Notes under the pieces: generated by a model
Seen by the model: the letters and a program-made list of their open reading frames with translations, nothing else
What the model was told of the DNA's origin: nothing
Databases searched by the model: none
NCBI RefSeq assembly: GCF_013409345.1
Contig: NZ_JACCBB010000001.1
Span: forward strand, 1,116,001-1,180,000
Source: Kineococcus aurantiacus
GTDB lineage: Bacteria > Actinomycetota > Actinomycetes > Actinomycetales > Kineococcaceae
DNA length: 64,000 nucleotides
Reading direction: 5' to 3'
Program-made: the position numbers and the translations under genes
Shown here: piece after piece, positions 25,115-39,128 of the stretch
Position numbering within the stretch: the stretch's first letter is position 1
Layout of the letters: every line of letters begins with the position of its first letter

Positions 25115-25242
25115 GGGGGCGGATCCTGCTACGCCTCGTCGCCGCCGTGCAACGCAGCGTCGGTCGGGGGTCCACCGACCTCGATGACCGAGAGCGACCG
25201 GTGTGCGACGATGCGCGCACCGCCGCCGACGGAGGGAGACAC

Positions 25243-26154
25243 ATGTCGACGCCCGAGTCGGCGCCGCACGCCACGAGCACGACGCAGGCCCCCGCGCCCG
25301 CCGCCACGGCCCCCTTCGTCGACGTGGTCGTCCCCGTCAAGGACGACCCGCGGCTGGAGGGCTGCGTGCGGGCCCTGCTGGCCCAGGACCACCCCGCCGA
25401 CCGGTTCCGGGTCATCGTCGCCGACAACGGCTCCGCCGACCCCCGCCTGGACCTGGCCGACCTCGACCCGCGCGTCAGCGTCGTCGTCGAACCCCGCCCC
25501 GGCTCCTACGCCGCGCGCAACGCCGCGGTCCGGCTGGCCCGCGGCGACGTCCTGGCCTTCACCGACTCCGACACCGTCCCGGACCCGGCGTGGCTGTCCG
25601 GGGCCGTGCGCGCCCTGCGCTCGGGCGCCGACATCGTCGCCGGGCGGGTCCGGGTCTACCCGCGCGACCCCGCCCGCCCCCACCCCGTGGAGGCCTTCGA
25701 GGTCGTCAACGCCTTCCGGCAGGACCGCACCGTGCCGCGCGGTTTCGCCGTGACGGCCAACGTCGTGGTGCGCCGGGAGGTGTTCGACGCCGTCGGCCCC
25801 TTCAACGACGCGCTGCCCTCAGGCGGGGACGCGGAGTGGTGCGGCCGGGCCGTGGCCGCCGGGTACCGGCTCACCTACGTCGAGGACGCCGTCGTGGCCC
25901 ACCCCGCCCGGGACTCCTACGCCGAGGCGTGGAAGAAGCTGTGCCGGGTCCAGCTCGGGCGGCAGCTGCGGGTCCGGGCCGGGGAGGACCCGCCCGGCGC
26001 CCTGACGCTCAAGGCCTTCGCCCCGCCCCTGGGCTCGCTGGTGCGCGCCGTGCGGGCCCGCGAGCTGACCGGCGCCCGCGCGCGGGCCGCGTACGTCGTC
26101 GGCGCGTTCTACATGCGCTACGGGCGCGCCGCCGCGGCCGTGAAGTACCGCTGA
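25243..26154 (+). CDS. Glycosyltransferase family 2
   Basis: A 303-residue GT-A enzyme. The ATG at 25243 has a strong GGAGGG site 6 bases upstream; the frame further upstream is not used. VDVVVPVKDDPRLEGCVRALLAQDH, VIVADNGSADPRLD, LAFTDSDTVPDPAWLSGAV (DSD metal site) and SGGDAEWCGRAVAAGY are clear GT2 motifs. It is strikingly similar to the divergent GT2 at 24128-25114, so the two may be duplicates. It stands 26 bases before the ABC exporter of the RiPP cluster, so it could decorate either the EPS or the peptide; the first is more usual. Confidence 0.86.
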   Translation: MSTPESAPHATSTTQAPAPAATAPFVDVVVPVKDDPRLEGCVRALLAQDHPADRFRVIVADNGSADPRLDLADLDPRVSVVVEPRPGSYAARNAAVRLARGDVLAFTDSDTVPDPAWLSGAVRALRSGADIVAGRVRVYPRDPARPHPVEAFEVVNAFRQDRTVPRGFAVTANVVVRREVFDAVGPFNDALPSGGDAEWCGRAVAAGYRLTYVEDAVVAHPARDSYAEAWKKLCRVQLGRQLRVRAGEDPPGALTLKAFAPPLGSLVRAVRARELTGARARAAYVVGAFYMRYGRAAAAVKYR

Positions 26155-26180: not shown

Positions 26181-28145
26181 GTGACCACCGCACCCGCCGG
26201 CGCCGCGGCCGGGACGCCGGACGCGCCCGGCCCCACCCCGCCGCCCCGCGTCGACGGCCTGAGCATCGCCCGCGAGCGCCGCGCGCGCCGCCGCCGGCTG
26301 CGGTCCCTGCCCGCGCTGGTCGTCGAGGCGCTGCGGCTGTGCTGGAGCGCGCGCCGGCGCGACCTCGTGCTGGTGTTCGGGGTGCAGCTGCTGGGCTCGG
26401 CGCTGCTGGGCGTGCAGGTCCTGGTGGGGCGCGAGGCCCTGGCCCGGGTGTTCACCGGTTCCGGCGCCGGCGCGGACGGGGACCTGCTGCGGGCCGTCGG
26501 CGGGCCGCTGCTGGCGCTGGCGGGCCTGAGCGTGCTCGCCGGTCTGGCCGGCGCGGTCCGCGGCCAGCGGGTCCGGCTGCTGTCCGAGGCGGTGCAGCGC
26601 GCCGTGTGGCGGCGCGTCGTGGACACCACCACGGCCGTCCCCCTGGAGCGCTTCGACGACCCGCAGTTCCACGACCGCCTCCAGCGCGTCGCCACCAACG
26701 CCGTGTCCCGGCCGGTCGGGGTCGCCCAGGGTCTGGTCTCGATCCTCGGCGGGGTCGTCGGGGCGGTGGGGCTGGTCCTCGCCCTGTGGACCATCGAGCC
26801 GCTGCTGCTGCCGCTGCTGGCGCTGGCCGCGGTCCCGGTGCTGCTCGTCTCCCGGCGCGGCGGCCGGCTGGAGTTCGACTTCGCGGTGGCCCAGTCGGGG
26901 CCCTACCGGGTGCGCACGTACCTGCGCTCGGCCCTCACGGGGCGGCGCGAGGCCAAGGAGGTGCGGGCCTACGGCCTGGCCGCGCCGCTGCTGGCGCGCT
27001 ACGAGCAGCTGCTGGAGGAGTACCAGCGCGCGCTGACGGCGCACGTGGGCCGGCGCATGCGCCTGACGCTGCTGTCGCAGCTGGTGACGGCCGCCAGCGT
27101 CGTGGGCACGGTCGTGCTGCTGCTGTGGATGGTGGACTCGGGGCGGATGTCGCTGGCCGACGCCGGGGCGGCCGGGGCGGCGGCCCCGCTGCTGGCCTCG
27201 CGCCTGCAGGCCCTGGCCGGCGGGGTCGGCACCGTGCTGGAGGCGGGCCTGTTCCTGGACGACCTGCGGGGCTTCCTCACGCTGGGGGGTGCCGCGGCGG
27301 CGGGCCCGGTCGCGCGGCCGGGGGCGGTCGGGCCCCTGGTGGAGCTGCAGGTGCAGGACGTGGGGTACCGCTACCCGCAGGGGGGCCGGCCGGCGCTGCG
27401 GGGGGTGTCGCTGACCGTGCGCCGGGGCGAGGTGGTGGCCCTGGTCGGGGAGAACGGCTCGGGCAAGACGACGCTGTCGAAGCTCCTGGCGGGGCTGCTG
27501 CCGGCCGCGGGGGGCACGGTCCGCTGGAACGGGACGGACGTCGCCGAGCTGGACCCGGCCGCGGTGCGCGAGCACGTCGCGGTCGTGTTCCAGGACTTCG
27601 TGCAGTGGCAGTTCTCGGCGCACGACAACATCGCGGTGGGCCGGGCCGGGCGCCCCGACGAGGCGGCCGCGGTCCCGGCCGCGGCGGTGCAGGCGGGGGC
27701 GGACGCGCTGCTGCGCGGGCTGCCGCAGGGGTACGCGACGCCGCTGAGCGCGGAGCTGCCCGGCGGGGTGGACCTGTCGCTGGGGCAGTGGCAGCGCGTC
27801 GCCCTGGCCCGCGCGTTCTACCGCGCGGCGGACCTGGTGATCCTGGACGAGCCGACCGCGGCGCTGGACGCGCGCGCGGAGGCGGAGCTGTTCGCGGGGA
27901 TCCGCGACCTCGCCGCGGGCCGGACGGTGGTCCTGGTCTCGCACCGGTTCTCCAGCGTGCGCGAGGCCGACCGGATCGTGGTGCTGCGCGACGGCGGGGT
28001 CGACGACACCGGCACCCACGAGGAGCTCGTGGGCCGCGGCGGGCTGTACGCGGAGCTGTACGCGCTGCAGGCCCAGGCCTACCTCGACGAGGAGGTGGCG
28101 GGCCGGGGCGGGACCCCCACCGGCCGGCACGTGGCCCGCGGGTGA
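26181..28145 (+). CDS. ABC exporter with fused membrane and ATPase domains (RiPP exporter)
   Basis: A 654-residue protein (GTG at 26181). Residues about 70-330 hold six membrane helices; the ATPase follows with Walker A VGENGSGKTTLSKLLAGLLP (about 421), Q-loop VFQDFVQW, signature LSLGQWQRVALARAF (G of LSGGQ replaced by L in the third place) and Walker B LVILDEPTAALD. The H-loop is SHRFSSV. Half-transporters of this kind act as dimers and export peptides or lipids. Placement just before the PqqD-like, B2 and cyclase genes makes it the D protein of a lasso-type RiPP cluster, giving export and self-protection. No peptidase domain, in keeping with a separate B2 protease. Confidence 0.88.
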   Translation: MTTAPAGAAAGTPDAPGPTPPPRVDGLSIARERRARRRRLRSLPALVVEALRLCWSARRRDLVLVFGVQLLGSALLGVQVLVGREALARVFTGSGAGADGDLLRAVGGPLLALAGLSVLAGLAGAVRGQRVRLLSEAVQRAVWRRVVDTTTAVPLERFDDPQFHDRLQRVATNAVSRPVGVAQGLVSILGGVVGAVGLVLALWTIEPLLLPLLALAAVPVLLVSRRGGRLEFDFAVAQSGPYRVRTYLRSALTGRREAKEVRAYGLAAPLLARYEQLLEEYQRALTAHVGRRMRLTLLSQLVTAASVVGTVVLLLWMVDSGRMSLADAGAAGAAAPLLASRLQALAGGVGTVLEAGLFLDDLRGFLTLGGAAAAGPVARPGAVGPLVELQVQDVGYRYPQGGRPALRGVSLTVRRGEVVALVGENGSGKTTLSKLLAGLLPAAGGTVRWNGTDVAELDPAAVREHVAVVFQDFVQWQFSAHDNIAVGRAGRPDEAAAVPAAAVQAGADALLRGLPQGYATPLSAELPGGVDLSLGQWQRVALARAFYRAADLVILDEPTAALDARAEAELFAGIRDLAAGRTVVLVSHRFSSVREADRIVVLRDGGVDDTGTHEELVGRGGLYAELYALQAQAYLDEEVAGRGGTPTGRHVARG

Positions 28146-28182
28146 GCCCTCCCGCAGCGTGTCCGCAGCGTGTGCGTGCCCT

Positions 28183-28188
28183 TACGCT
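28183..28188 (+). promoter_or_regulatory. -10 box (TACGCT) for leaderless B1-B2-C transcript
   Basis: TACGCT lies six bases before the GTG at 28195, so the RiPP biosynthetic genes can be transcribed separately from the exporter. Two direct copies of CGCAGCGTGT (from about 28154 and 28165) precede it and an ACGCTGTGCG overlaps it in the other direction, a possible regulator site. Confidence 0.45.
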
Positions 28189-28194
28189 GTGCGC

Positions 28195-28464
28195 GTGAGC
28201 GAGGCGCAGCAGGTGGCGGTGCGGTCCGAGGAACTGGCCTGGAACGAGGTCGACGACCAGATCGTGGTCCTCGACACCACCACCTCGACCTACCACGCGG
28301 TCTCCGGCGCGGGCGTCGCCCTGTGGCCGCTGCTCGTCGCGGGCACCACGCGCGCGGACCTGCTGGAGGCGCTGCGGCGCACCTACGACATCCCCGGGGA
28401 CCGGGCCGAGGCCGACCTCGACGCCTTCCTCGCCGACTGCGGCCCGCTGCTGCGGACGGCCTGA
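28195..28464 (+). CDS. PqqD-like RiPP recognition element (lasso B1 type)
   Basis: An 89-residue protein with the PqqD fold: VAVRSEELAWNEVDDQIVVLDTTTSTYHAVSGAGVALWPLLVAG, then DLLEALRRTYDIPGDRAEADLDAFLADCGPLL. The VLD..TSxYHxVSG..alWpLL pattern is typical of lasso B1 proteins, which bind the YxxP part of the precursor leader and hand it to the B2 protease. Both precursors at 32.75-33.08 kb have this leader motif. It is followed one base later by B2, so the two are co-translated. Confidence 0.9.
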   Translation: MSEAQQVAVRSEELAWNEVDDQIVVLDTTTSTYHAVSGAGVALWPLLVAGTTRADLLEALRRTYDIPGDRAEADLDAFLADCGPLLRTA

Positions 28465-28465
28465 G

Positions 28466-28882
28466 GTGCGGCCGGGAGCCCACCTGCGCCGCGTCCGGCG
28501 GCGGGCGGTGCGCCGGCTGCGCCGCCGCCTGGGCCTGGTCCGGCACGGCGGGCTGGCCGCGGCCCGCTGGGCCGACCGCTCGCTGCGGACCGTGCGCCGG
28601 GACCTGCCCGCCGACGGCCTGCGCACCCGCGTCGGCCCGCCGCCGGACCTGCCGGCGGCCGGGCTGGGGGCCGTGGAGGCCGTGCTGCGCCGCCGGGGCG
28701 CGACGTGCCTGCAGCGCTGCCTCGTCGTGCAGGCCTGGCTGCTGGCGCACGGGCAGCCGCGCGAGGTCGTCGTCGCCGCCTCGGTCGCCGACGGGTTCGC
28801 CGCGCACGCCTGGCTCGACGGCCACGACGAGGACGAGAGCTCGACCTACCGCGAGCTGACCCGCGTCCCGGCGCTGCGGTGA
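28466..28882 (+). CDS. Lasso-type B2 leader peptidase (transglutaminase-like Cys protease)
   Basis: A 138-residue protein. RRGATCLQRCLVVQAWLLAHGQPREVVVAASVADGFAAHAWLDGHD holds the expected Cys (ATCLQRC), His (AHAWL) and Asp (LDG) triad of lasso B2 proteins, followed by the family ending STYREL. It should cut the precursor after the leader bound by B1. The arginine-rich N terminus is also common in the family. Its stop overlaps the cyclase start (GTGA). Confidence 0.9.
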   Translation: MRPGAHLRRVRRRAVRRLRRRLGLVRHGGLAAARWADRSLRTVRRDLPADGLRTRVGPPPDLPAAGLGAVEAVLRRRGATCLQRCLVVQAWLLAHGQPREVVVAASVADGFAAHAWLDGHDEDESSTYRELTRVPALR

Positions 28883-30060
28883 CCGCCGGGGCGGGCGCTG
28901 ACGTCCCCCTGGACCGGCTGGGCCCGCTGGAGACGGTGTGGGGCATGCCGGTCGGCGCCCAGCCGGGGGTGCGGCCGCTGCCGCCGGGGTCGGGGCTGAC
29001 GCTGCGGGCCGCGCTGGAGGAGGCCGTGCTCCCGGCGCTGCGGCGCGGGCCGTGCGTCGTGAGCTTCTCCGGCGGGCGGGACTCCTCGACGGTCCTGGCC
29101 GTGGCGACGTCGGTGGCCCGCCGCGAGGGCCTGCCCGACCCCGTCCCCTACACCCACCGCTTCCCGCACGTGCCGGACTCCCACGAGGACGAGTGGGCCG
29201 AGCTGGTCGTCCGGCACCTGGGCCTGCGCGAGTGGGAACGGCCCGCCTGGGGCGACGAGATGGACGTCCTGGGCCCCTTCGCCCGCACCGTCCTGCTGCG
29301 CGACGGCGTGCTGCCGCCCTTCAACGGGCACCTGCACGAACCCGTCTTCGCCGCCGCCCGCGGCGGCTCGGTGCTGACCGGCATCGGCGGCGACGAGCTG
29401 TTCTCGCAGGTCTCCCGCTACCCCGCGGTGCGGCTGCTGGCCCGGCGCGCGCCGCTGACCGCGCGGGCCCTGCCGCGCACCGCGTTCTCCGTGCTGGCCC
29501 CCGCCCCGCTGCGGGCCCGGCGGCTGGGGCGGCACCTGCCGATGGCCTTCGGGTGGCTGCGCCCGGACGCGGCCCGGGAGCTGCGGGCGGCCGTGGCCCG
29601 GCACACGGCCGCCGAACCGCTGCGCTGGGACCGGGCCGCCCGGCGGTGGCTGTGGACCAGCCGGCTCCTGCACGTGGCCGGGGCCGCCAAGGAGCGCACG
29701 GCCGCCGCCCACGACGTCCACGTCACCCACCCCTTCTCCCGCCCCGCCACGCTGCGCGCGGCGGCCGTCGCCTTCGGCTGGGCCGGGCCGCGCGGGCGGA
29801 CCGGGGAACTGCTGCGCCACGTCGGGGACCTGCTGCCGCGCGCGCTGTGCGAGCGCGGGACCAAGGCCGGTTTCAACGGCGCCTTCTGGACGGCGACGGC
29901 CGCCTCCTTCGCGGCCCGCTGGACCGGGGTGGGCGTCGACACCGACCTGGTGGACCCGGAGGCGCTGCGCGCCGAGTGGGCCGCCCCCGACCCCGACCTG
30001 CACTCGATCACCCTGCTGCAGCACGCGTGGCTGGCGCAGGAGGGCCGGCCCGCCCGCTGA
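28879..30060 (+). CDS. Asparagine-synthetase-like macrocyclase (lasso C type), short form
   Basis: A 393-residue protein. VVSFSGGRDSSTVLAVATSVARREG (PP-loop at about 62-70) and SVLTGIGGDELFSQVSRYP are the ATP-binding motifs that activate an acidic side chain by adenylation. KERTAAAHDVHVTHPFSRPATL and ERGTKAGFNGAFW match the C-terminal conserved part. Lasso C enzymes join the core N terminus to an Asp or Glu side chain. Unusual is its length: the N-terminal glutaminase-like half of McjC-type enzymes (about 200 residues) is missing; only about 60 residues come before the PP-loop. Last gene of the B1-B2-C operon. Confidence 0.88.
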   Translation: MTAGAGADVPLDRLGPLETVWGMPVGAQPGVRPLPPGSGLTLRAALEEAVLPALRRGPCVVSFSGGRDSSTVLAVATSVARREGLPDPVPYTHRFPHVPDSHEDEWAELVVRHLGLREWERPAWGDEMDVLGPFARTVLLRDGVLPPFNGHLHEPVFAAARGGSVLTGIGGDELFSQVSRYPAVRLLARRAPLTARALPRTAFSVLAPAPLRARRLGRHLPMAFGWLRPDAARELRAAVARHTAAEPLRWDRAARRWLWTSRLLHVAGAAKERTAAAHDVHVTHPFSRPATLRAAAVAFGWAGPRGRTGELLRHVGDLLPRALCERGTKAGFNGAFWTATAASFAARWTGVGVDTDLVDPEALRAEWAAPDPDLHSITLLQHAWLAQEGRPAR

Positions 30061-30066
30061 GGACCC

Positions 30067-30966
30067 TCAGCCCCCGATGGCGTCCAGCTCGGCCAGGTCC
30101 TGCTCGGACAGGACGGTGCCGGCGCCGGCGACGTTCTCGCGCAGGTGCGTCACCGACCTCGTCCCCGGGATGAGCAGCACGTTCGCCGAACGCTGCAGCA
30201 GCCAGCTCAGCGCCACCGCCGTGGGCGTGACCGCCAGCCGCTGCGCCACCGCCGACAGCGCCTGCGACTGCAGCGGGGTGAACCCGCCCAGGGGGAAGAA
30301 CGGGACGTAGGCGATGCCGTCGCGGGCCAGGTCGTCGAGCAGGTCGTCGTCGTGGCGGACGGCGAGGTTGTACAGGTTCTGCACGCACACGACCGGGGCG
30401 ACGGCCCGCGCCTCGGCGACCTGCTCGGCGGTGACGTTGCTGACCCCCAGGTGGGCGATCAGGCCGTCCTGCTGCAGCTGGGCGAGGGTCTCGAAGGCCT
30501 CGGCGATCGAGCCCGCCTGCGGGCCGGTGGCGTCGCCCGCGCGCAGGTTCACCAGGTCCAGGGTCTCCACGCCCAGGGCGTGCAGGTTGTCCTGGACCTG
30601 CCGGCGCAGGTCCTCGGGACGGCGGGCGGTGGGCCAGCCGCCCCGGGCGTCGCGGTCGGCGCCGACCTTGGTGGCGATGAGCAGCGGCTGCGGGTAGGGG
30701 TGCAGGGCTTCGCGGATCAGCTCGTTGGTGACGCGGGGGCCGTAGGCGCCGGAGGTGTCGACGTGGGTGATGCCGGCCCGCACGGCGGCGCGCAGGACGG
30801 CCAGGGCGCCGTCGTGGTCGGCCGGAGGGCCCAGGACCCCGGGGCCGGCCAGCTGCATCGCGCCGTAGCCGAAGCGGGTGACCTGACGGTCGCCCAGGGT
30901 CCAGGTGCCGCCGGGCAGGGCGGTCGGGGTGGAGCTGGTGGTGTCGTCGGTGGAGGTGGTGCTCAC
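30067..30966 (-). CDS. Aldo/keto reductase
   Basis: A 299-residue NADPH-dependent reductase (GTG at 30966). RFGYGAMQLAGPGV, GITHVDTSGAYGPRVTNELI (catalytic Asp and Tyr), LIATKVGA (Lys) and IAHLGVSNVTAEQV plus LLIPGTRSVTHLRENV form the full AKR pattern; the barrel is complete. Related to proteins often called pyridoxal reductase or oxidoreductase. It lies in the middle of the RiPP cluster but on the opposite strand, next to its own divergent HxlR regulator, so it probably belongs to an independent redox or aldehyde response. Confidence 0.88.
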   Translation of the reverse strand: MSTTSTDDTTSSTPTALPGGTWTLGDRQVTRFGYGAMQLAGPGVLGPPADHDGALAVLRAAVRAGITHVDTSGAYGPRVTNELIREALHPYPQPLLIATKVGADRDARGGWPTARRPEDLRRQVQDNLHALGVETLDLVNLRAGDATGPQAGSIAEAFETLAQLQQDGLIAHLGVSNVTAEQVAEARAVAPVVCVQNLYNLAVRHDDDLLDDLARDGIAYVPFFPLGGFTPLQSQALSAVAQRLAVTPTAVALSWLLQRSANVLLIPGTRSVTHLRENVAGAGTVLSEQDLAELDAIGG

Positions 30967-31070
30967 GGTGGGGCCCTTCCCGTCGCCGGTCGCGTCGGAC
31001 CGGGTGCTCGTCCCGATGACCGCGGTCGCGGTGCTGGCGCCGCCGGTGCGGCGTGGACGAGACTGGCACC

Positions 31071-31093
31071 CCTGCTCTCCGACGGGAAGCAGG
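31071..31093. promoter_or_regulatory. Inverted repeat CCTGCT-N11-AGCAGG between AKR and HxlR genes
   Basis: CCTGCT (31071-31076) and AGCAGG (31088-31093) lie in the 168-base divergent spacer, 42 bases before the HxlR start. HxlR regulators often bind such sites in their own promoter. No experimental proof; alternatively a chance hairpin. Confidence 0.4.
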
Positions 31094-31134
31094 CACTTTC
31101 GAGTGCGTTGCGCACCTTCGAGACGGGAGCCGCC

Positions 31135-31635
31135 GTGACCACGACGCCACCGCACCCCTCGACCCCCCGGGCGGGGAAGCGGGCCACGCCGCCGGCAGCG
31201 GGGACCGAGCGGACCGCCGCGCAGCGGTACGACGCCTTCCTGGCGGTCTGCCCGAGCCGGCAGCTGCTGGCCCGGATCTCGGACAAGTGGGTCACCCTGG
31301 TCCTGTGCGCCCTGGCCGGGGAGGCCGCACCCCCGGCCGGGGACGACGCGCCGGCCGGGCCCCGGGCGCTGCGCTACTCCCAGCTGTCCCGGCTGCTGGT
31401 GGGGGTCAGTCAGAAGATGCTGACCCAGACGCTGCGGTCCCTGGAGGCCGACGGCCTGGTGACGCGCAGCGTGGTCCCGACGGTGCCGGTGACGGTCACC
31501 TACGAGCTCACCGACCTCGGCGCGTCGCTGCACCGGGTGGTGGGCCTGCTCCGCGCGTGGGCGCAGGACAACATGGACGCCGTCACCGCCCACCGGGCCG
31601 GTCACGGCGAGGGACCGGCGGACCCGGCCGAATGA
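31135..31635 (+). CDS. HxlR-family winged-helix regulator
   Basis: A 166-residue DNA-binding protein. CPSRQLLARISDKWVTLVLCALAGE (the single Cys sits where redox-sensing HxlR proteins carry theirs), LSRLLVGVSQKMLTQTLRSLEADGLVTRSVVPTVPVTVTYELTDLGASL is the winged helix with the recognition helix in the middle. An insert of about 12 residues (APPAGDDAPAGP) lies before the LRYSQLS helix. Divergent from the aldo/keto reductase, which it probably controls, possibly in response to aldehydes or quinones. Confidence 0.87.
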   Translation: MTTTPPHPSTPRAGKRATPPAAGTERTAAQRYDAFLAVCPSRQLLARISDKWVTLVLCALAGEAAPPAGDDAPAGPRALRYSQLSRLLVGVSQKMLTQTLRSLEADGLVTRSVVPTVPVTVTYELTDLGASLHRVVGLLRAWAQDNMDAVTAHRAGHGEGPADPAE

Positions 31636-31686
31636 CGTGCGCCGGGCTCCACCACCCGGCCCACGTCCACCCAGGAGCGCCGGCCC

Positions 31687-32562
31687 TCAACCCTCACCGG
31701 CGTCCCGGGGCGCCCCGCGCCCGGCGAGGGTCAGCAGGTGCTCCGCGAGCAGCCGGGCCGCGTCGTCGGCGACCTCCAGGCGCCGGGGCCGCAGCAGGCG
31801 CACCGTCGGCAGGCTGAGCAGGCGCAGCGGGGCGCGCTCGTCCGCGGGGGGCAGGCGCAGGGCCAGCGCCTGGGTCAGGGCCGGCCAGCGCTGCGGCAGC
31901 GGCACGTCCTGCACGGCCGGGGCGTCGGCCCAGCCGAGGTGGACCAGGCCCGCCAGCTCCAGGTCCCCCGGCGGCAGCTGGACGGGGACCTCGACGCGCC
32001 AGCGCCGCCGCCGCCCCACGACCCCGATGTCCTGCCCGGCGCCGTAGTGCTCGGCGCTCTCGCGGCGCAGGTCCACGCAGCGGGGGCCGGGCAGCACCCG
32101 CAGGCCGTCGAGGACGAGGACGTCGTCGGCGACCAGGTCGAGCCCGGCGCGCACCAGGGAGTACATGGCCGTGCTCTTGCCCGCGCCGCGGTCGCCCAGC
32201 ACCGCCCAGACGCGGCCACCGACGACGACCGCGCCGGCGTGCAGGGCGACCCGGCCCTGCCACCACGCGACGGTGGCGGCCGTGGCCGCGAGGTAGGGGT
32301 GGACGACGGCCGCGTCGTCGGGCGGGGGGCAGGCCGTGAACGTGGTCGTGGCGGTGAGCCGGTCGACCTCCACGTTGCCCTCGCCCATCGGCAGGACGGC
32401 CCGGTCGGGTCCGACGGCGGTCCGCACCGGCGGCGGGACGTGGTCGAGCGCGACCCGCCGCACGGTCCACGGCGTCTCCCCGCCGCGCGCGGGGTGCAGC
32501 AGGTGGGCGGCGCCGGTGAGGTCGGGCAGGGCCAGGCCGTAGGCGACCGGGGCGGTGGTCAT
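31687..32562 (-). CDS. HPr-kinase-like P-loop kinase of RiPP cluster
   Basis: A 291-residue protein. WQGRVALHAGAVVVGGRVWAVLGDRGAGKSTAMYSLVRAGLDLVADDVLVLDG (residues about 101-153) contains the HPrK-type Walker A GDRGAGKST, the following DD pair and the histidine in LHAGAV. Real HPr kinases have an extra N-terminal domain and act in sugar control; related proteins in lasso clusters (paeninodin type) phosphorylate the C-terminal serine of the peptide. Both precursors next door end in serine. It is divergent from the precursor genes across a 187-base spacer. Confidence 0.85.
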   Translation of the reverse strand: MTTAPVAYGLALPDLTGAAHLLHPARGGETPWTVRRVALDHVPPPVRTAVGPDRAVLPMGEGNVEVDRLTATTTFTACPPPDDAAVVHPYLAATAATVAWWQGRVALHAGAVVVGGRVWAVLGDRGAGKSTAMYSLVRAGLDLVADDVLVLDGLRVLPGPRCVDLRRESAEHYGAGQDIGVVGRRRRWRVEVPVQLPPGDLELAGLVHLGWADAPAVQDVPLPQRWPALTQALALRLPPADERAPLRLLSLPTVRLLRPRRLEVADDAARLLAEHLLTLAGRGAPRDAGEG

Positions 32563-32666
32563 GGGAGAAGGGAAGCAGCCCCCTCCCCCGTCGCCCGCAG
32601 CGGCTCGCACCTACGTACCGTCGAACGGAGTTCCACGGACAGTACGCGAAGTGGGTGACCGTGCAG

Positions 32667-32695
32667 TAATCTCACACGCACCGGGAGTGACTCCC
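32667..32695 (+). promoter_or_regulatory. Candidate promoter/operator of the precursor genes
   Basis: TAATCT at 32667-32672 is the best -10 in the spacer before the precursors. Just downstream, where the transcript would begin, is the perfect inverted repeat GGGAGT-G-ACTCCC (32683-32695), suited to bind a dimeric regulator or to fold in the mRNA. The 5' untranslated region would be about 70 bases. No clear -35 was found. Confidence 0.4.
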
Positions 32696-32749
32696 TGGCT
32701 GAGCACCGCCGCACCGCCGATCGAAGACGCCGACGCCCTGGAGGTACCC

Positions 32750-32896
32750 GTGGCCGAGCACTACTCCGCTCCGCGCCTGACCACGCTCGGCTCGCTGGCC
32801 GAGCTGACCCTGCGGAACAAGAAGTTCGGCACCAAGAGCGACGGTGACTTCTTCTGCGAGGACGACGGCAGCACGCCGCTCTACACCGTCTCCTGA
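32750..32896 (+). CDS. Lasso-like RiPP precursor peptide 1
   Basis: A 48-residue peptide. The GTG at 32750 has a GGAGG site 7 bases upstream; the longer frame upstream is not used. Residues 5-20 YSAPRLTTLGSLAELT match the lasso leader motif YxxPxLxxxGxxxxxT exactly. After it come LRNKKFGTKSDG, DFFCEDDG and a C-terminal STPLYTVS. If cut two residues after the threonine in the usual way (after L21) the core would begin with Arg22, and the first acidic residue (D31) would be at core position 10, one beyond the normal 7-9. One cysteine (C36). C-terminal Ser48 is the likely kinase target. Only 22 bases separate it from precursor 2. Confidence 0.85.
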   Translation: MAEHYSAPRLTTLGSLAELTLRNKKFGTKSDGDFFCEDDGSTPLYTVS

Positions 32897-32918
32897 CCCG
32901 ACCCCGAGGAGGACTCCC

Positions 32919-33080
32919 GTGACCCAGCCCTACGTGGCCCCGACCCTCACGACGCTCGGCTCCCTGGCCGACCTCACCCTGCAGACCGGGAAGCAGTTCG
33001 GCGCCACCAGCGACGGCGACTTCCTCAACGGCCAGGCCGTCTACACGGTCTCCTGCGGGTGCACGACCGGCATCAGCTGA
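32919..33080 (+). CDS. Lasso-like RiPP precursor peptide 2
   Basis: A 53-residue peptide with a GAGGAGG site 6 bases before the GTG at 32919. Leader YVAPTLTTLGSLADLT (5-20) is the same motif as in precursor 1. The core LQTGKQFGATSDGDFLNGQ shares FGxxSDGDF with precursor 1 and then AVYTVS, after which eight extra residues, CGCTTGIS, follow. If the core began at G24, D32 would be at position 9, a normal lasso ring; from Q22 it would be position 11. Two cysteines (C46, C48) in the tail. Ends in serine like precursor 1. The two genes look like a recent duplication. Confidence 0.85.
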   Translation: MTQPYVAPTLTTLGSLADLTLQTGKQFGATSDGDFLNGQAVYTVSCGCTTGIS

Positions 33081-34246
33081 GCCCCGCCCTGGACGGACGC
33101 ACCGCCGGAGGTCCCCGCCGCGCCCACCGCGCCGCGGGGACCTTCGTGCGCTCGCTGCTGCGCGGCGCGCCCGCGCCCGCCCGCGGGGTGACGCCCGAGG
33201 CCCTGGGCCGCGTCGTGCACCTGCACCGCGTCGGCCCCACCGTCGACCACCTGCTGCGCACCGCCCCCGACGCCGCCGCCCTCGCCCCGCTGCGGGCCGG
33301 CACCCGCCCGGCCCTCGTGGCGCAGACCGCCCGGCAGCTGCCGGTCCAGCTGGACCTGCGCACCGTCGAGAGCGCCCTGCGCGGCCTGGCGTGGGCGGTC
33401 GTGAAGGGCCCGGCCGTCGCCCGCACCCTGTACGCGGGGACCCCCCGCGAGTTCCACGACCTCGACGTCGTCGTGTCCCCGGCCTCCTTCGGCGAGGCCC
33501 TGCGCCGCCTCGAAGCCGCCGGCGCCCGCGCCATGGACCCCGACTGGGCCGGCATCCGCGCCGCCCGCGCCGGCGAGATCGCCGTGGCCCTGCCCCACGG
33601 CACCTTCCTGGACCTGCACTGGCACCTGGTCAACCGGCCCCACCGGCGCGCCCGCTTCGCCGTCGACGTCGACGCCATGCTCGACCGCGTCCGCCACGAC
33701 GTCCTGCTCGGCACCCGCGTGCCCGTCTTCGACGCCACCGACCAGCTGCACCACCTCGCCCTGCACGCCTGCCTGTCCGGCGCCTGGCGGCTGCTGTGGT
33801 CGCACGACCTGCGCCTGGCCGCCGCCGCCACGGACGACTGGGACGAGCTCGTCGCGCGCGCCCGCGCCGCCGGCACCGGGCTCCCCGTCGCCCTGGCCCT
33901 GGCCCGCGCGCGGCAGGTCCTCGACGCCCCCGTGCCCGGGCGCGTGCTGCGGGCCCTGGGCGACCCGGCGTGGCTGGCGCTGCAGTCGGCGACGACCCTC
34001 GCGCGGCCCCCGCACGCCCTGACCGCCCCGCGGCGGCACGGGGCGATCCTCTTCACCAGCGCTTCCAGCAGCGGGCCGGCCAGCGCCGCCGCGCTGGTCC
34101 GCGCCGTGCGCGAACGCCGCACCGACGCCCCGGGCCCCGTGGACCCCGGACCGGCGGACACGGCGCGGGAGGCGTACCTGGTCGACGTGTCCCGGGAGTC
34201 AGGCAGCGCCCTGGCAGCCCCGGAGCCTCAGCCCGCGCTGGAGTAG
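33059..34246 (+). CDS. Nucleotidyltransferase family protein of RiPP cluster
   Basis: A protein of 395 residues if the GTG at 33059 is used (overlapping precursor 2 by 22 bases), or 366 residues from the GTG at 33146, which has GGGGA upstream; the choice is open. WAVVKGPAVARTLYAGTPREFHDLDVVVS holds the K-G pair and the D-x-D metal site of the uncharacterised nucleotidyltransferase family (PF14907 type). ALPHGTFLDLHWHLVN and LHHLALHACLSGAWRLLWSHDLRLAA are further family blocks. Such proteins occur beside HPrK-like kinases in lasso clusters; in the pseudomycoidin cluster one modifies the phosphorylated C terminus. It overlaps the convergent GT2 by 19 bases. Confidence 0.78.
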   Translation: MHDRHQLSPALDGRTAGGPRRAHRAAGTFVRSLLRGAPAPARGVTPEALGRVVHLHRVGPTVDHLLRTAPDAAALAPLRAGTRPALVAQTARQLPVQLDLRTVESALRGLAWAVVKGPAVARTLYAGTPREFHDLDVVVSPASFGEALRRLEAAGARAMDPDWAGIRAARAGEIAVALPHGTFLDLHWHLVNRPHRRARFAVDVDAMLDRVRHDVLLGTRVPVFDATDQLHHLALHACLSGAWRLLWSHDLRLAAAATDDWDELVARARAAGTGLPVALALARARQVLDAPVPGRVLRALGDPAWLALQSATTLARPPHALTAPRRHGAILFTSASSSGPASAAALVRAVRERRTDAPGPVDPGPADTAREAYLVDVSRESGSALAAPEPQPALE

Positions 34247-35124
34247 GTCCGGCGCCCCTGCTCCCGCCCGATGAGGCGGGCGGCCCGGCAGACCCACCGG
34301 CCGCGCCGGCCGGGCCCCTGCACGAGGTGGTACCCGTGCCGCAGCAGCCAGCGGGCGTCCGCGCGGGACACGCCCTCGGGAGCCCGTGCCCCGTGGGGGC
34401 GGTACTGGGCCAGCAGCCTCGCCTCGTTGCGCGCGTAGTCGCGGAACTGGCGCGCCGTGCCCCGCAGGTCCGAGCGGTAGCGGTACTGCACGACGGCGCC
34501 CTCGGCCAGCCCGATGCGGTGGCCGGCCAGCTGGACCCGCCAGCTGAAGTCGACGTCGTCACCGCCGGCCACGTAGGACTCGTCCCAGCCGCCGACGGCG
34601 AGGGCCACGTCCCGCCGCACCGCGAGGTTGCACCCCATCGCGAACGGCAGGAAGCCGAAGCGCGTCTGCAGCGCACCGGGGGTGGGCCCCGGCCGCCACG
34701 CACGCCGGACGGCGTCGTTGGGCGTGACCACGTCCATGGTCCCGCCGACGAGGTCGGCCCCCTCCATCGCCCGCACCAGGCTGCTCAGCCACCCGGGCAC
34801 GACGACGTCGTCGGCGTCGCACACGGCGACGACGTCCGCGCGCGCGGCCCGCAGCCCGACGTTGCGCGCCCGGCTGACGCCCTGGACCCCGCTGGAGTCC
34901 ACGCACCGCAGGTCCAGGCCGTACCGCGCGGCCCACCCGGGCACGTGCCCGGGCAGGCCGTCGGTGCTGCCGTTGTCCGACAGCACGACCTCGAAGGTCC
35001 CCTCGAAGTCCTGCGCGGCGAGCGCGGCGAGCTGGTTCTCGACGACGCCGACCACGTTCCAGCAGGGGACGACCACCGTGACGTCCGGGACGTCCGGCAC
35101 GTCGGACCTCGTCGGCTGGCTCAT
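34228..35124 (-). CDS. Glycosyltransferase family 2
   Basis: A 298-residue GT-A enzyme; the ATG at 35124 overlaps the flippase stop. VTVVVPCWNVVGVVENQLAALAAQDFEGTFEVVLSDNGSTDG, SRARNVGLRAARADVVAVCDADDVVVPGWLSSLV (DADD metal site) and VAGGDDVDFSWRVQLAGHRIG are the family motifs. Several repeats of DVPDVPDVTV near the start look like slippage. Final gene of the EPS operon 39998-34228; probably adds a side sugar. Confidence 0.87.
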   Translation of the reverse strand: MSQPTRSDVPDVPDVTVVVPCWNVVGVVENQLAALAAQDFEGTFEVVLSDNGSTDGLPGHVPGWAARYGLDLRCVDSSGVQGVSRARNVGLRAARADVVAVCDADDVVVPGWLSSLVRAMEGADLVGGTMDVVTPNDAVRRAWRPGPTPGALQTRFGFLPFAMGCNLAVRRDVALAVGGWDESYVAGGDDVDFSWRVQLAGHRIGLAEGAVVQYRYRSDLRGTARQFRDYARNEARLLAQYRPHGARAPEGVSRADARWLLRHGYHLVQGPGRRGRWVCRAARLIGREQGRRTYSSAG

Positions 35125-36686
35125 CGGCGTCCTTCCGGTGCGGCTTCGATCGACGGGTCCCCGCCGGCGCCGACCGTCACGACGTCGTCGGGCGTGGTGG
35201 CGCCGGGCGCGGCGGGTCCGGTGACGTCGGCCGCGCGGCGGCCGCCGCGCAGCGCGCGGACGTCGACCAGCGCCCGGCGGAAGACGGGACGGGCCACCAG
35301 CCACAGGGCGGGCGGGTAGACGAGGGCGGCCACGAGGACCTGCACGACGACGCGCACCCAGGTGTCGACCCCGTGGGCGAGGGCGCCGGCGCCGACCAGC
35401 GCGCCCGCCATGACGAGCGAGGCGAGCAGGACGCGCAGCGCCGGGACCGTGCTGCGCAGCGGGATCCCGGCTTCGCGGCGGATGACCAGCTGCCGCACGG
35501 GCAGCGACAGCACCTGCCGCGCGAGCAACCCGAGGGCGACCCAGGTCAGCCCGTGCGGGACGAGGAGGACCACGATGACGACGTGGGACACCACGATGCC
35601 CGCCACCATGACCATCTCCGGCCGCAGGCGGTCGACGGCGATGAAGATCGAGCGGTCGAACTGGCTGAAGACCGCCAGGGCGGCGGTCGCGGCGACGATC
35701 TGGGCGACCTGCGCCGCGTCCGCCCACTGCTGCCCGAGCAGCAGCGGCACCAGGTCCGGGCTGGTGACAGTGAGGAAGAGGGTGGCCGGGAACATCACCA
35801 GCCCCGCGGAGTACATGGCCGTCGAGTAGGCCCGCGCCAGCCGCTCCCGGTCCCCCTGGAGCTTGGCGAACGCCGGGGTGGCCACCGTGCTCACGACCGA
35901 GCTGCCCGTGTCCTGGATGATCTTGACGAGCCGGTTGGCGATCGACCAGTACCCCAGCAGCACCGAGGACCCCATCCCCGCGAGGACGAAGTCCGTGCCC
36001 CGCGAGCGGGCGTTGAGCAGCAGGTCCATCCCCATGAGCTTGGTCCCGAAGGAGAGCATGCTGCGCGCCTCGGAACGGTCGAGCACGAAGTGCGGCCGCC
36101 AGCGCACGACGGTCCAGGTGATGACGACCGTGACCGCGCCCCGCACCAGGTTCTGCGCCACCAGGGCCCAGACCCCGGCTCCAGCCAGGGCCAGGACGAT
36201 CGCCACGACCGACCCGACGACCGTGGCGACGGCTCCGCGCACGGCCAGGGACTTGAACTGCATGTCCCGGCGCAGCAAGGCGTTCGGCACGCTGCCCAGA
36301 CCGGTCAGCACCATCGTCAGGGCCAGCCAGCGCAGGACGGGGGCGAGGTCGTCCTCGTGGAACAGGTGGGCCAGGGCACCGGCCAGGAGCGCGAGCAGAC
36401 CGGCGAGCGCACCGGCCAGGACGAGGCTGGTCCAGAACGCCGTGCTGCGGTGGCGCTCGTCGACGTGCTGCGAACGGACGAGGTAGTTCGCCATGCCCGT
36501 GTCGCTCAGGAGCTGCAGGACGGCGATGACGGACATCGCCAGGGCGACCAGCCCGAACTCCGACGGCTGCAGCTGCCGGCCGATGACGATGAAGGCGGCG
36601 GCCGTCGTCGCCCGCACGAACCACATCTGCGCCGCCGTCCACAGGACGCCGGAGGTGGCCCGGCGCCGCAGCGAGCTCCCGCTCAC
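35121..36686 (-). CDS. Polysaccharide flippase (Wzx/MATE-like)
   Basis: A 521-residue membrane protein with about 12-14 helices. ATSGVLWTAAQMWFVRATTAAAFIVIGRQLQPSEFGLVALAMSVIAVLQLLSDTGM is the N-terminal signature of the polysaccharide transporter family, and SFGTKLMGMDLLLNARSRGTDFVLAGMGSSVLLGYWSIANRLVKI matches the second half. It should flip the undecaprenyl-linked repeat unit across the membrane. The C-terminal tail (about 45 residues) is Pro/Gly/Ala-rich and charged. It follows the pyruvyltransferase stop by 33 bases. Confidence 0.89.
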   Translation of the reverse strand: MSGSSLRRRATSGVLWTAAQMWFVRATTAAAFIVIGRQLQPSEFGLVALAMSVIAVLQLLSDTGMANYLVRSQHVDERHRSTAFWTSLVLAGALAGLLALLAGALAHLFHEDDLAPVLRWLALTMVLTGLGSVPNALLRRDMQFKSLAVRGAVATVVGSVVAIVLALAGAGVWALVAQNLVRGAVTVVITWTVVRWRPHFVLDRSEARSMLSFGTKLMGMDLLLNARSRGTDFVLAGMGSSVLLGYWSIANRLVKIIQDTGSSVVSTVATPAFAKLQGDRERLARAYSTAMYSAGLVMFPATLFLTVTSPDLVPLLLGQQWADAAQVAQIVAATAALAVFSQFDRSIFIAVDRLRPEMVMVAGIVVSHVVIVVLLVPHGLTWVALGLLARQVLSLPVRQLVIRREAGIPLRSTVPALRVLLASLVMAGALVGAGALAHGVDTWVRVVVQVLVAALVYPPALWLVARPVFRRALVDVRALRGGRRAADVTGPAAPGATTPDDVVTVGAGGDPSIEAAPEGRR

Positions 36687-36719: not shown

Positions 36720-37727
36720 TCAGTTCCGCGCGTCGAGTGCGTCCAGAGCACGCGGGACCTCCTTCCACGAGGCGGCGAAGACGCTGTGCGGGTCCTCGCC
36801 CAGCCAGGTCTCGTGCAGGGCCCGCACCTTGCCGAAGCGGTCGTTCACCACGACGTGCGGGATGCCCAGGAGGGTGGAGATCACGTGGCCGTGCAACCGG
36901 TCGGTCACCACGCGCTCGCCGCGGGACAGCAGTGCCGTCGCCCGCTGGAGGTTGGCCCGGGCGAGCACCCGCAACGCCGTGCGCGCGGTGACCGCGCTCG
37001 CCCGCGAGGGGTGGCGGCGCTGGAGGGAGTTGAGCTTGCGGGCCACCCGCAGGGCCGTCGCCGAACGGGAGCGGGGCGGTGCCTGCACCCAGTCGAACGT
37101 CTCCCCGAACCCCTCGACGCCGCCGGCTTCCCGGTCGGTCCGCGCCTGCACGACGAGGGGCTCGACGGCCCGCGCGCGCGGCAGCGGCCCGAGGGCGAAC
37201 GCCAGGTCCGGCACCAGGTGCACCTCGCAGTCGTAGTCGCGCTGGGCGATCTCGAAGCTGCGCGCGTCCCGCACGAGGAGGACGAAAGCCCCGTGCTCAC
37301 CGACGGCGCGCCGCAGTTCCTCGCGGTGCTGCTCGTCGACGTGCTCGATGGACTGCGGCAGCTGCACGGCCGGGCGTCCCTTGGTGTCCTGCAGGAACCG
37401 CAGCCGGTGCTCGTGGTGCGTCGGGTAGAGCCCACCCCACGTGCCCCCGGCCATCGACACCGGCAGGGAGTCCGGGGACAGGAGGCGGGGGTCGTAGGAA
37501 CGCCGGTCCAGGATGCGGTCGACGCGAACCCCGGCCGAGCGCGCCGCGGCCTCCAGCCCGAGGTGCAGCGCCGAGTCGCCGCAGTTGAAGTGCAGGGGGA
37601 AGTCCAGCGCCGTCCAGCTGCCGTACCCCTGGGGCAGGGTGCGGGCCAGGTCGGCGAGCAACCGGTCCCGCAGGGCGGGGACCACGGAGGCGTGCGAACG
37701 CGCCGAGTCGGGGACTGCTTCGGTCAC
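36720..37727 (-). CDS. Polysaccharide pyruvyl transferase (2)
   Basis: A 335-residue enzyme of the same family as 23079-24131. WTALDFPLHFNCGDSALHLGLEAA (with CGDS instead of VGDS), MAGGTWGGLYPTHHEHRLRFLQDT, VQLPQSIEHVDEQ and RVVTDRLHGHVISTLLGIPHVVVNDRFGKV are the motifs. The usual HGGGNFGD is MAGGTWGG here, so this is a diverged member and might use a different acceptor. The GTG at 37727 overlaps the polymerase stop (GTGA). Confidence 0.85.
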   Translation of the reverse strand: MTEAVPDSARSHASVVPALRDRLLADLARTLPQGYGSWTALDFPLHFNCGDSALHLGLEAAARSAGVRVDRILDRRSYDPRLLSPDSLPVSMAGGTWGGLYPTHHEHRLRFLQDTKGRPAVQLPQSIEHVDEQHREELRRAVGEHGAFVLLVRDARSFEIAQRDYDCEVHLVPDLAFALGPLPRARAVEPLVVQARTDREAGGVEGFGETFDWVQAPPRSRSATALRVARKLNSLQRRHPSRASAVTARTALRVLARANLQRATALLSRGERVVTDRLHGHVISTLLGIPHVVVNDRFGKVRALHETWLGEDPHSVFAASWKEVPRALDALDARN

Positions 37728-39121
37728 GGGTGGCTCCCAGGTGCAGGGCGGACGTGCGGTCGAGCGGTGGCCTCGAGGGTGGACGGTCGCGTGCGCGCGC
37801 CGGCCCGCGAGGCGAGCAGGCCCAGGACGATCGTGAACACGAGCGTCGGCTGCGGGAAGGAGGTGAGGTCGCTGGTGAAGGCGCCCATGAGCACGACGGC
37901 CAGGACGGCCAGCAGGGCGCGGTTGAGGCTGCGGTCGGCCGCGTCGGCGGCCAGGACGCTGCGGTCCCAGGCGACGCCGCCGGCGACGAGGAAGAGCAGG
38001 GCCAGGAGGGCGACGCCCACGGCGCCGCCGCCGATGAGGGTCCCCAGCCACGTGTTGTCCAGGTACACCCCGCCGGTCTCGGGGCGGTAGACCCCCGAGC
38101 CCAGGCCCAGGACGGGGTTCTCCCGGAACAGCTGCTCCACGAGGGCGTAGTCGGACAGCCGCCCGGTGACGCTGTTGTCCTGCTCCGCGTCGCTGAAGAT
38201 CAGGGCCAGCGAGCTGGTGAGGGTGGGCACGAGGACGAACATCAGCAGCACGCCGAGCCCGGCCACCGCGACGGCGGCGGCCTTCTGCGCCAGCGGCCAG
38301 ATGGAAACCGCGATGACGCCGCCGACGGCCAGCCCGAGGACCGCGGTGCGGGAGACCGCCAGCGGGACCCCCACCACCAGCACGAGGCTGGCGAACCCGG
38401 CGGCCCACCGGCGGCCGGCGGTCGCGGCGTGGCGGGCCAGGTGCACGGCCAGCGGCAGGGCGGCCGTCGTGGCGAGGGAGAACTCCAGGGGGTGCTCACC
38501 GGTGCCGCGGGCGCGCAGGAAGTCCAGCCGGCTCACGGTCCCCAGGGTGGGGGTGTTCTCGACCAGCGGGGTGGCGCGGACCAGGGAGGCCCAGTTCACG
38601 ACGCCCAGCCAGGAGGCGGCCGCGACGAGGACGGAGAAGGTGGCGCACGCGACGATCCAGCCGACGACGCGGTCGACGTCGCGCCGCTGCGTGACGACGA
38701 ACCACGTGTAGAGGGCGACGCCGGTGATGCCCAGCGCCCCCACGAGGGAACGCAGCGCACCGGCGCTCTGCGCGGCGTCGAGGGGGCGGGAGACGGCGAC
38801 GCCGTAGCTCCAGGTGGCGCCGGCCAGGTACAGGACGAGGGCGCCGCCCACGAGCGACCACCGGGGTTCGTCCTCGTCGCTGCGCCGCCGCCGGGAGGTG
38901 ACCAGGGTCAGGACGGCCAGGCCGAGGCACAGGAGGGAGAACAGGCGGGCGGGGCTGCCGTTGGAGTTCAGCGGGCCGGGGAGGACGAAGTTGCCGGGGA
39001 AGAGGAACGCGCAGACGACCACGGCGATCGGCAGCCAGGACACGGGCAGCGGCCGGGCGCGGTGCGGGGTGTGCCGGGTGGGGTCCGCGACGGTCCGGGC
39101 GACCGCGGGCAGCAGGCTCAC
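37724..39121 (-). CDS. O-antigen polymerase/ligase-like membrane protein (Wzy type)
   Basis: A 465-residue protein with about 11-12 membrane helices, beginning LPVSWLPIAVVVCAFLFPGNFVLPGP. The long extracytoplasmic loop RENPVLGLGSGVYRPETGGVYLDNTWLGTLIGGGAVGV contains the conserved NPxxGxGxG pattern of the Wzy/WaaL family. It should join exported repeat units into polymer. The GTG at 39121 lies 7 bases after the chain-length gene stop and has GAGGAC upstream; the longer frame is rejected since it overlaps that gene. Confidence 0.86.
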   Translation of the reverse strand: MSLLPAVARTVADPTRHTPHRARPLPVSWLPIAVVVCAFLFPGNFVLPGPLNSNGSPARLFSLLCLGLAVLTLVTSRRRRSDEDEPRWSLVGGALVLYLAGATWSYGVAVSRPLDAAQSAGALRSLVGALGITGVALYTWFVVTQRRDVDRVVGWIVACATFSVLVAAASWLGVVNWASLVRATPLVENTPTLGTVSRLDFLRARGTGEHPLEFSLATTAALPLAVHLARHAATAGRRWAAGFASLVLVVGVPLAVSRTAVLGLAVGGVIAVSIWPLAQKAAAVAVAGLGVLLMFVLVPTLTSSLALIFSDAEQDNSVTGRLSDYALVEQLFRENPVLGLGSGVYRPETGGVYLDNTWLGTLIGGGAVGVALLALLFLVAGGVAWDRSVLAADAADRSLNRALLAVLAVVLMGAFTSDLTSFPQPTLVFTIVLGLLASRAGARTRPSTLEATARPHVRPAPGSHP

Positions 39122-39128
39122 GGTGTCC

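Follow-up and report, generated by a model that had tools for sequence, protein, structure and literature searches.

A lasso-type peptide cluster with a short cyclase in Kineococcus aurantiacus and its possible lysine-aspartate ring

Which amine closes the ring of a lasso-type peptide whose acidic residues lie too far from its predicted N-terminus? In lasso peptides the ring-closing acid, Asp or Glu, must be residue 7-9 of the core, and a cluster at 26181-34246 of the 64,000-nucleotide stretch of Kineococcus aurantiacus DNA analysed here (the window, to which all coordinates refer) encodes lasso-type enzymes together with two precursors that depart from this rule. Our tentative answer is that the cluster makes a lasso-type ribosomally synthesised and post-translationally modified peptide (RiPP) of a short-cyclase family of Actinobacteria, with a ring formed between a Lys side chain and Asp. 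The genome that holds the window comprises 5.03 Mb in two contigs, its relatives are actinobacterial, and G+C across the window is 70-81% in 2 kb steps. Published work is cited below from excerpts of the articles named.

The elements on which the argument turns are these:
26181..28145, + strand: ABC exporter, MsbA-like, 654 aa (ABC_tran, E 1.1e-30)
28159..28464, + strand: B1, a discrete PqqD-type RiPP recognition element (RRE; PqqD PF05402, E 8.1e-12)
28466..28882, + strand: B2, leader peptidase, a transglutaminase-like Cys protease (catalytic residues Cys81 and His114)
28879..30060, + strand: C, short Asn-synthetase-type cyclase, 393 aa, SGGRDSS PP-loop from residue 64 (Asn_synthase PF00733, E 9.4e-18)
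31687..32610, - strand: HprK-like kinase, predicted C-terminal Ser kinase (His-Lys-Asp-Asp motif)
32750..32896, + strand: precursor 1, leader 32750-32812, core from 32813, boundary predicted from Thr(-2): RNKKFGTKSDGDFFCEDDGSTPLYTVS
32819..32821, + strand: Lys of precursor 1 seven residues before the conserved Asp; a second Lys follows directly, six before it
32840..32842, + strand: conserved Asp of precursor 1, core position 10
32919..33080, + strand: precursor 2, leader 32919-32981, core from 32982, boundary predicted from Thr(-2): QTGKQFGATSDGDFLNGQAVYTVSCGCTTGIS
32991..32993, + strand: Lys of precursor 2 seven residues before the conserved Asp
33012..33014, + strand: conserved Asp of precursor 2, core position 11
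33059..34246, + strand: nucleotidyltransferase (NTP_transf_5 PF14907, E 4.1e-29)

Profile matches place the exporter, B1, B2, C, the kinase, both precursors and the nucleotidyltransferase where an initial annotation of the window had put them, and its proposal of lasso-type machinery gains support from B1, B2, C, the YxxP leader and Thr(-2); sequence alone establishes the genes, the leader motif and the setting of the locus. B1 passes its Pfam cut-off and lies below that of NF033530 (35 bits, cut-off 70), while B2 scores under both of its cut-offs (Transglut_core3, 24.6 bits against 26; the lasso B2 model NF033537, 23.5 against 33). In the B2 active-site region, Cys, His and one Trp are invariant in all 74 aligned sequences. 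The kinase falls under the Pfam and NCBIfam cut-offs; its His-Lys-Asp-Asp motif is nevertheless present, and these four residues are conserved in 80, 80, 81 and 80 of 81 aligned kinases, respectively. Asp-x-Asp occurs in 57/57 aligned nucleotidyltransferases; the window enzyme may start downstream of 33059, as its domain begins at residue 46. Both precursors have a purine-rich stretch upstream that resembles a ribosome-binding site, their leaders carry a YxxPxL motif with Thr at -2, as expected of lasso leaders, and both exceed the cut-off of 19 for lasso_leader_L3 (NF033521), with 20.7 bits for precursor 1 and 19.5 for precursor 2. The tail of precursor 2 (33045-33077) extends beyond the terminal YTVS of precursor 1 and contains Cys-Gly-Cys, a possible disulfide or metal site.

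The same gene set recurs in other genomes. In two loci of the window's genus, L024 and L025 (L numbers are ours), the cluster genes are 65-94% identical to those of the window, with the kinase pair at 67% and the exporter copies at 84% (L024) and 77% (L025). A first contig scan with a single protein as query gave no match. C was found in 4 of 12 family-sample genomes (11 of the 12 being of the window's genus, and its own genome included), in 19/296 genomes of the class and 3/66 of another class (the own or centre genome counted in each), and in at least 3 of 396 genomes of the phylum (centre genome counted). A profile scan of named genomes gave 118 relatives, of which 77 loci were retained. 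The genera among these include Jiangella, Phytoactinopolyspora, Amycolatopsis, Prauserella, Actinophytocola, Nocardioides, Blastococcus, Modestobacter, Cellulomonas, Isoptericola, Georgenia and Solirubrobacter, among others, with one Gemmatimonadetes bin besides. The resulting set holds 87 distinct loci with short C, duplicates removed and the window counted, some of them short contigs. The partners seen with C are B1 (76 loci), B2 (74), the kinase (82), the nucleotidyltransferase (60) and the exporter (68); all five are present in 52/87 loci and in 47 of the 64 loci of at least 15 kb. This recurring gene set, together with the recurring peptides, rules out chance open reading frames (ORFs).

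For the precursors, core residue 1 was taken as the second residue after the conserved Thr, which is thus -2. A strict leader pattern, applied near C, returned 108 rows (103 distinct) from 79/87 loci and no precursor in the other eight; five more from four later-fetched loci brought the final set to 108 distinct precursors. A leader pattern that leaves the Thr unspecified gave 113 hits; 108 of them have it, and the other five are noise-like. We call a precursor with Asp or Glu at 7-9 a rule-keeper, and one whose first acid from position 7 onward lies at 10 or beyond a rule-breaker. Seventy-six of the 108 keep the rule and 32 break it. The window precursors are among the latter, with no Asp or Glu at 7-9 and first acids at 10 and 11. 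The machinery part of the initial lasso assignment stands; the departure from the ring rule and the short C were overlooked in it, and the product may not be threaded, or may not be a lasso. For comparison, 40 canonical stretches were chosen by the B1 model NF033530 (37 above its cut-off, three below). The lasso cyclase model NF033535 was unusable for this purpose, as none of its matches reached cut-off and it also matched in E. coli and other control genomes; hence the choice of NF033530. The 30 loci fetched with NF033535 (L127-L156) yielded no convincing precursor in the scan. In the 40 controls this pattern was matched by 22 rows in 21 loci and by nothing in the other 19; an acid stands at 7-9 in 20 of these rows, and the other two lack any core acid, one resembling a membrane protein. 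A first acid at 10 or beyond is therefore a feature of 32/108 precursors and 0/22 control rows (P 0.002); asking only for an acid at 7-9, with the two acid-less control rows kept, P is 0.06.

What the rule-breakers offer instead is a near-constant spacing between a Lys and the acid. In 28 of the 32, Lys lies 6 or 7 residues before the first acid (22 at -6, 10 at -7, four at both), no other offset has a Lys in more than 6 precursors, and only 7/76 rule-keepers have such a Lys. Within the subset with the acid at 10-15 it occurs in 26/30 (14/17 with redundancy removed), and when the residues ahead of the acid were shuffled 20000 times, no offset ever matched the observed count. The position of the Lys in the core varies from 3 to 8 in these 26 and is 14 and 18 in the other two. 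These two have the longest Thr-Lys spacers of the main set (L059, ORF 7061, Lys 14 and Asp 21; L091, ORF 8092 on the - strand, Lys 18 and Asp 24). All eight precursors from the clade that includes the window (window, L024, L025, L026 and L043) have Lys at -7. The initial annotation had singled out an FGxxSDGDF core; the feature common across genera is the near-fixed Lys-Asp distance rather than FGxxSDGDF as such. Orthologues point the same way: precursor 2 of L025 has a Thr-Lys stretch one residue shorter than that of the window, with the Lys-Asp distance unchanged, and the Blastococcus loci L063 and L076 again differ from the Modestobacter locus L066 in Thr-Lys length and not in Lys-Asp distance. 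Since the latter is near-fixed while the former changes, it would be the Lys, and not the residue after Thr-x, that is tied to the Asp. A parsimony count (13 changes in Thr-Lys, two in Lys-Asp) used rows preselected for Lys and is not independent evidence.

Taken together, these data lead us to propose, with some reserve, a RiPP family with an internal Lys-Asp ring (i to i+6 or i+7) and a variable N-terminal tail; in sister lineages, related short cyclases would form alpha-amine rings on Asp9 and perhaps Asp10. B1 would bind the YxxP leader, the HprK-like kinase would phosphorylate the C-terminal Ser and B2 would cleave after Thr-x; C would then adenylate the conserved Asp and close the macrolactam, most likely with the side-chain amine of a Lys that precedes it by 7 residues (in other precursors mostly by 6), so that a short free N-terminal tail would remain outside the ring. 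The nucleotidyltransferase may decorate the phosphate, the ABC protein may export the product, and the product may act at or in the surface polysaccharide. Paeninodin and pseudomycoidin are the models for phosphorylation, the order of steps and the nucleotidyltransferase role; what we infer ourselves is the Lys-Asp bond, threading and the surface role. By our count, Lys(i)-Asp(i+6) and Lys(i)-Asp(i+7) rings have 26 and 29 atoms, the same as alpha-amine rings closed by Glu8 and Glu9, so threading would be possible. Our count for Asp agrees with PMC13352647, where 8- and 9-residue rings have 25 and 28 atoms; PMC12427821 gives an eight-residue Asp ring 22 atoms, against 25 in our count and in PMC13352647. 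As to the tailoring genes, the paeninodin kinase phosphorylates the C-terminal Ser of its precursor, and the pseudomycoidin nucleotidyltransferase was tied by gene removal to a hexose on the phosphate (PMC9266682). A C-terminal Ser is found in both window precursors, in 22/32 rule-breakers and in 66/76 rule-keepers, which makes the same roles likely here by homology; the paeninodin-like kinase and nucleotidyltransferase genes bear out the tailoring genes listed in the initial annotation.

The main rival to a Lys side-chain ring is that B2 cuts directly before the Lys, which would become residue 1; its alpha amine and the Asp would then form an ordinary ring of 22 or 25 atoms (7 or 8 residues), with the Thr-to-Lys stretch belonging to the leader. 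Lys-Asp distances of 6 and 7 correspond to ring sizes 7 and 8, both known from the excerpted literature, and in L045 the Lys follows Thr-x directly, with Asp at 7. A cut at this site would, however, leave the Thr, kept at Gly+6 (108/113), 4 to 19 residues ahead of the cleavage point in the 28 rule-breakers with Lys. Nor does an alpha amine by itself give a reason for a conserved Lys, and residue 1 varies elsewhere: in 57 rule-keepers with Asp9 it is Ala in 30, Gly in 16, Gln in five, and Arg, Ser and Val in two each, and it varies in the controls too. The excerpt of PMC12670498 lists Gly, Cys, Ser and Ala, with Asn as new, at position 1, and does not name Lys. Because the Thr stays in place and alpha-amine lassos vary residue 1, we prefer the Lys side chain to a displaced cut, which we regard as somewhat unlikely.

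A second alternative keeps the cut after Thr-x and lets the new N-terminus close a ring of at least 10 residues, leaving the Lys with some other purpose. The conservation of Thr-x fits this, as does a group of seven precursors in which Gly1 and Asp10 are present in 7/7, four of them also having an acid at 7:
L087, ORF 1405 (- strand)
L098, ORF 11184
L104, ORF 9645
L114, ORF 9726
L116, ORFs 9496 and 7914
L117, ORF 9751
If Asp10 is used in this group, the ring may have 10 residues (31 atoms), exceeding the rings of 7-9 residues described in reviews, and 10-residue rings may therefore exist in this cyclase family. Applied to the Lys-bearing precursors, the same scheme would have ring size shift between orthologues, up to 21 and 24 residues in L059 and L091, while Lys-Asp stays at 6 or 7, and structurally characterised rings have 7, 8 or 9 residues (PMC13352647). 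We consider so large a ring very unlikely for the window.

The cyclase itself is short. Its match to the asparagine synthetase model TIGR01536 sets in only at model position 237 of 517, and that to NF033535 only at 241 of 668, so that, unlike the NCBIfam lasso cyclase NF033535, C lacks the N-terminal glutaminase-like half; the reading frames of B2 and C share 4 bases, which leaves no space for the missing domain. Eighteen relatives aligned with C have 384-430 residues, with starts picked near that of the window, and the frame from the preceding stop to the end of C is at most 460 residues in 16/19 related loci and longer in three (479, 537 and 614). Such truncation would suit a third possibility, namely that the product is linear or not closed by a macrolactam, like the linear polyphosphorylated peptides (LPP) of Bacilli, and that C does something else; the LPP clusters comprise an RRE, kinase, nucleotidyltransferase, exporter and peptidase (PMC13381572). 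Yet 34 aligned C sequences all keep the FSGGRDSS PP-loop, Gly171-Asp172 and Lys329, the Asp is retained in Lys-type precursors, and LPP clusters, as excerpted, have no C and use a signal-peptidase-type protease. We therefore judge a linear product improbable.

In a maximum-likelihood tree of C, the window groups with L024, L025, L026 and the Solirubrobacterales bin L043 (support 100/96). Rule-breaking precursors are dispersed over this tree, and its well-supported branches force at least 10 changes. At the variable residue of the TGxGGDE site (window C residue 169), 26 Lys-type short cyclases have Phe in 10, Ile in nine and Glu in five, versus Glu in 34/36 rule-keeping short cyclases. Loss of this Glu was considered as support for the Lys ring and dropped, because canonical cyclases lack it too: in 17 canonical lasso cyclase ORFs the residue is Phe, His, Ile, Leu, Tyr or Asp and never Glu (these ORFs were taken only if the PP-loop lay more than 150 residues in, and are uninformative on length).

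Several observations weigh against a Lys-Asp ring. Lys-type cyclases resemble canonical alpha-amine cyclases at TGxGGDE, with no sign of a special Lys site, which also suits a cut before Lys. Four of the 32 rule-breakers (L087b, L089, L116a and L116b) have no such Lys, those of L087b and L116 falling in the Gly1/Asp10 group, and, since 13 rule-keepers likewise carry a Lys at -6 or -7 from some Asp, the two precursor types are not cleanly separate. Gly or Ala after Thr-x is found in 9/32 rule-breakers and 55/76 rule-keepers when all rows are counted (P 3e-5); with redundancy removed the difference is no longer significant (7/17 versus 20/35, P 0.38). In one engineered lihuanodin variant a 29-atom ring came unthreaded (PMC13352647), and in L024 the orthologue of precursor 2 has a C-terminal Asn instead of Ser.

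The cyanobacterial lasso family NF033528 was set aside as the nearest relative after 7/396 phylum genomes matched it (E 0.01). A precursor could be read in five of the seven loci, and only that of L121 (1360-1566, - strand, outside the window's class) has a Lys six residues before its first Asp; there the first acid is at core position 33, and the coincidence may be due to chance. The precursors of L120, L122 and L123, of the NF033528 type, have no such Lys.

Gene order in the cluster is ABC exporter-B1-B2-C (+), aldo/keto reductase (-), HxlR (+), kinase (-), then precursors 1 and 2 and the nucleotidyltransferase (+). The two genes not yet described, and the neighbours of the cluster, are:
30067..31050, - strand: aldo/keto reductase, inside the cluster interval
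31147..31635, + strand: HxlR regulator, inside the cluster interval
25228..26154, + strand: flanking family 2 glycosyltransferase (88% identical in L024, 80% in L025)
34228..35046, - strand: flanking family 2 glycosyltransferase
35121..36686, - strand: flanking Wzx-type flippase (PF13440, E 6.4e-76)
36720..37700, - strand: flanking polysaccharide pyruvyl transferase (PF04230, E 1.3e-26)
37724..39181, - strand: flanking Wzy-type polymerase or ligase (PF04932, E 2e-12)
The aldo/keto reductase and HxlR genes had no tblastn match in the 20 kb around the clusters of L024 and L025; they are thus probably a local insertion and unlikely to be tailoring genes. Glycosyltransferase and polysaccharide pyruvyl transferase genes also lie on the side of the 25228..26154 gene.

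Is this setting particular to one genome? A search for the Wzx family in 23 genomes with C (the own genome included; a strong hit exceeding 200 bits) found a strong hit on C's contig within about 51 kb in 13, bearing out the exopolysaccharide placement given in the initial annotation. Six of the other ten have C on contigs of less than 300 kb and a strong hit elsewhere; G295, where C lies on 1.13 Mb of contiguous sequence, counts as a true negative, and no strong Wzx hit occurs in G448, G684 or G686. Where C lies on a contig of more than 3.5 Mb, a limit set after the list was seen, Wzx is 3 to 40 kb away in 7/7 (combined P 3e-9 under random placement). Four of these seven are Jiangellaceae (by duplicate named loci) and two belong to the window's genus, which leaves about three independent lineages. 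The polysaccharide link is not peculiar to the K. aurantiacus genome. Paeninodin-like clusters of Bacilli are likewise linked to polysaccharide loci, in a role that Popov et al. 2026 (PMC13381572) describe as unknown, and a link printed for Bacilli is here extended to Actinobacteria.

If the internal Lys is used, leader removal and ring closure would be separable and a free N-terminus would be available. The recognition of lasso genes would change, as the ring-position rule rejects such precursors, and lasso engineering would be affected too; one cyclase family with three ring patterns would form a sequence series for testing what sets ring choice. We found no description of short-cyclase or Lys-Asp-closed lasso-type peptides in the open-licence literature, a weak negative because subscription papers lie largely outside it.

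Several known systems share parts of this picture. Graspetides include side chain-side chain macrolactams, Lys with Asp or Glu among them, and are made by ATP-grasp ligases, not by Asn-synthetase-type cyclases. Lasso rings in the reviews are closed by the peptide N-terminus and have 7, 8 or 9 residues (PMC13352647, PMC12427821). Lariocidin B, a proposed class V lasso peptide, likewise employs the side chain of a Lys for an isopeptide bond; unlike the ring proposed here, its bond from Lys2 to the Arg17 carboxyl is additional to an ordinary 8-residue Asp-closed ring (PMC12427821). LPP clusters resemble the window in RRE, HprK-like kinase, nucleotidyltransferase, MsbA-like exporter and polysaccharide locus (PMC13381572) and differ in having, in the text excerpted, a signal-peptidase-type leader peptidase and no cyclase, where the window has B2 and C. 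Closest in gene content are paeninodin and pseudomycoidin of Bacillota, with B1, B2, C, an HprK-like Ser kinase and a C-terminal Ser, and, in pseudomycoidin, a nucleotidyltransferase as well (PMC9266682); the window kinase carries the His-Lys-Asp-Asp motif of paeninodin-like kinases described in the same article, and paeninodin-like clusters of Bacilli often lie within capsular polysaccharide loci (PMC13381572). The window cluster differs from this type in being actinobacterial, in its short C, in B1, B2 and kinase scores below the NCBIfam cut-offs, and in its leader motif, where Tyr replaces the Trp expected with the paeninodin family of B1, an RRE clade of Bacillota. Its cores differ as well, having no Asp or Glu at 7-9 and instead a Lys at a fixed distance from Asp.

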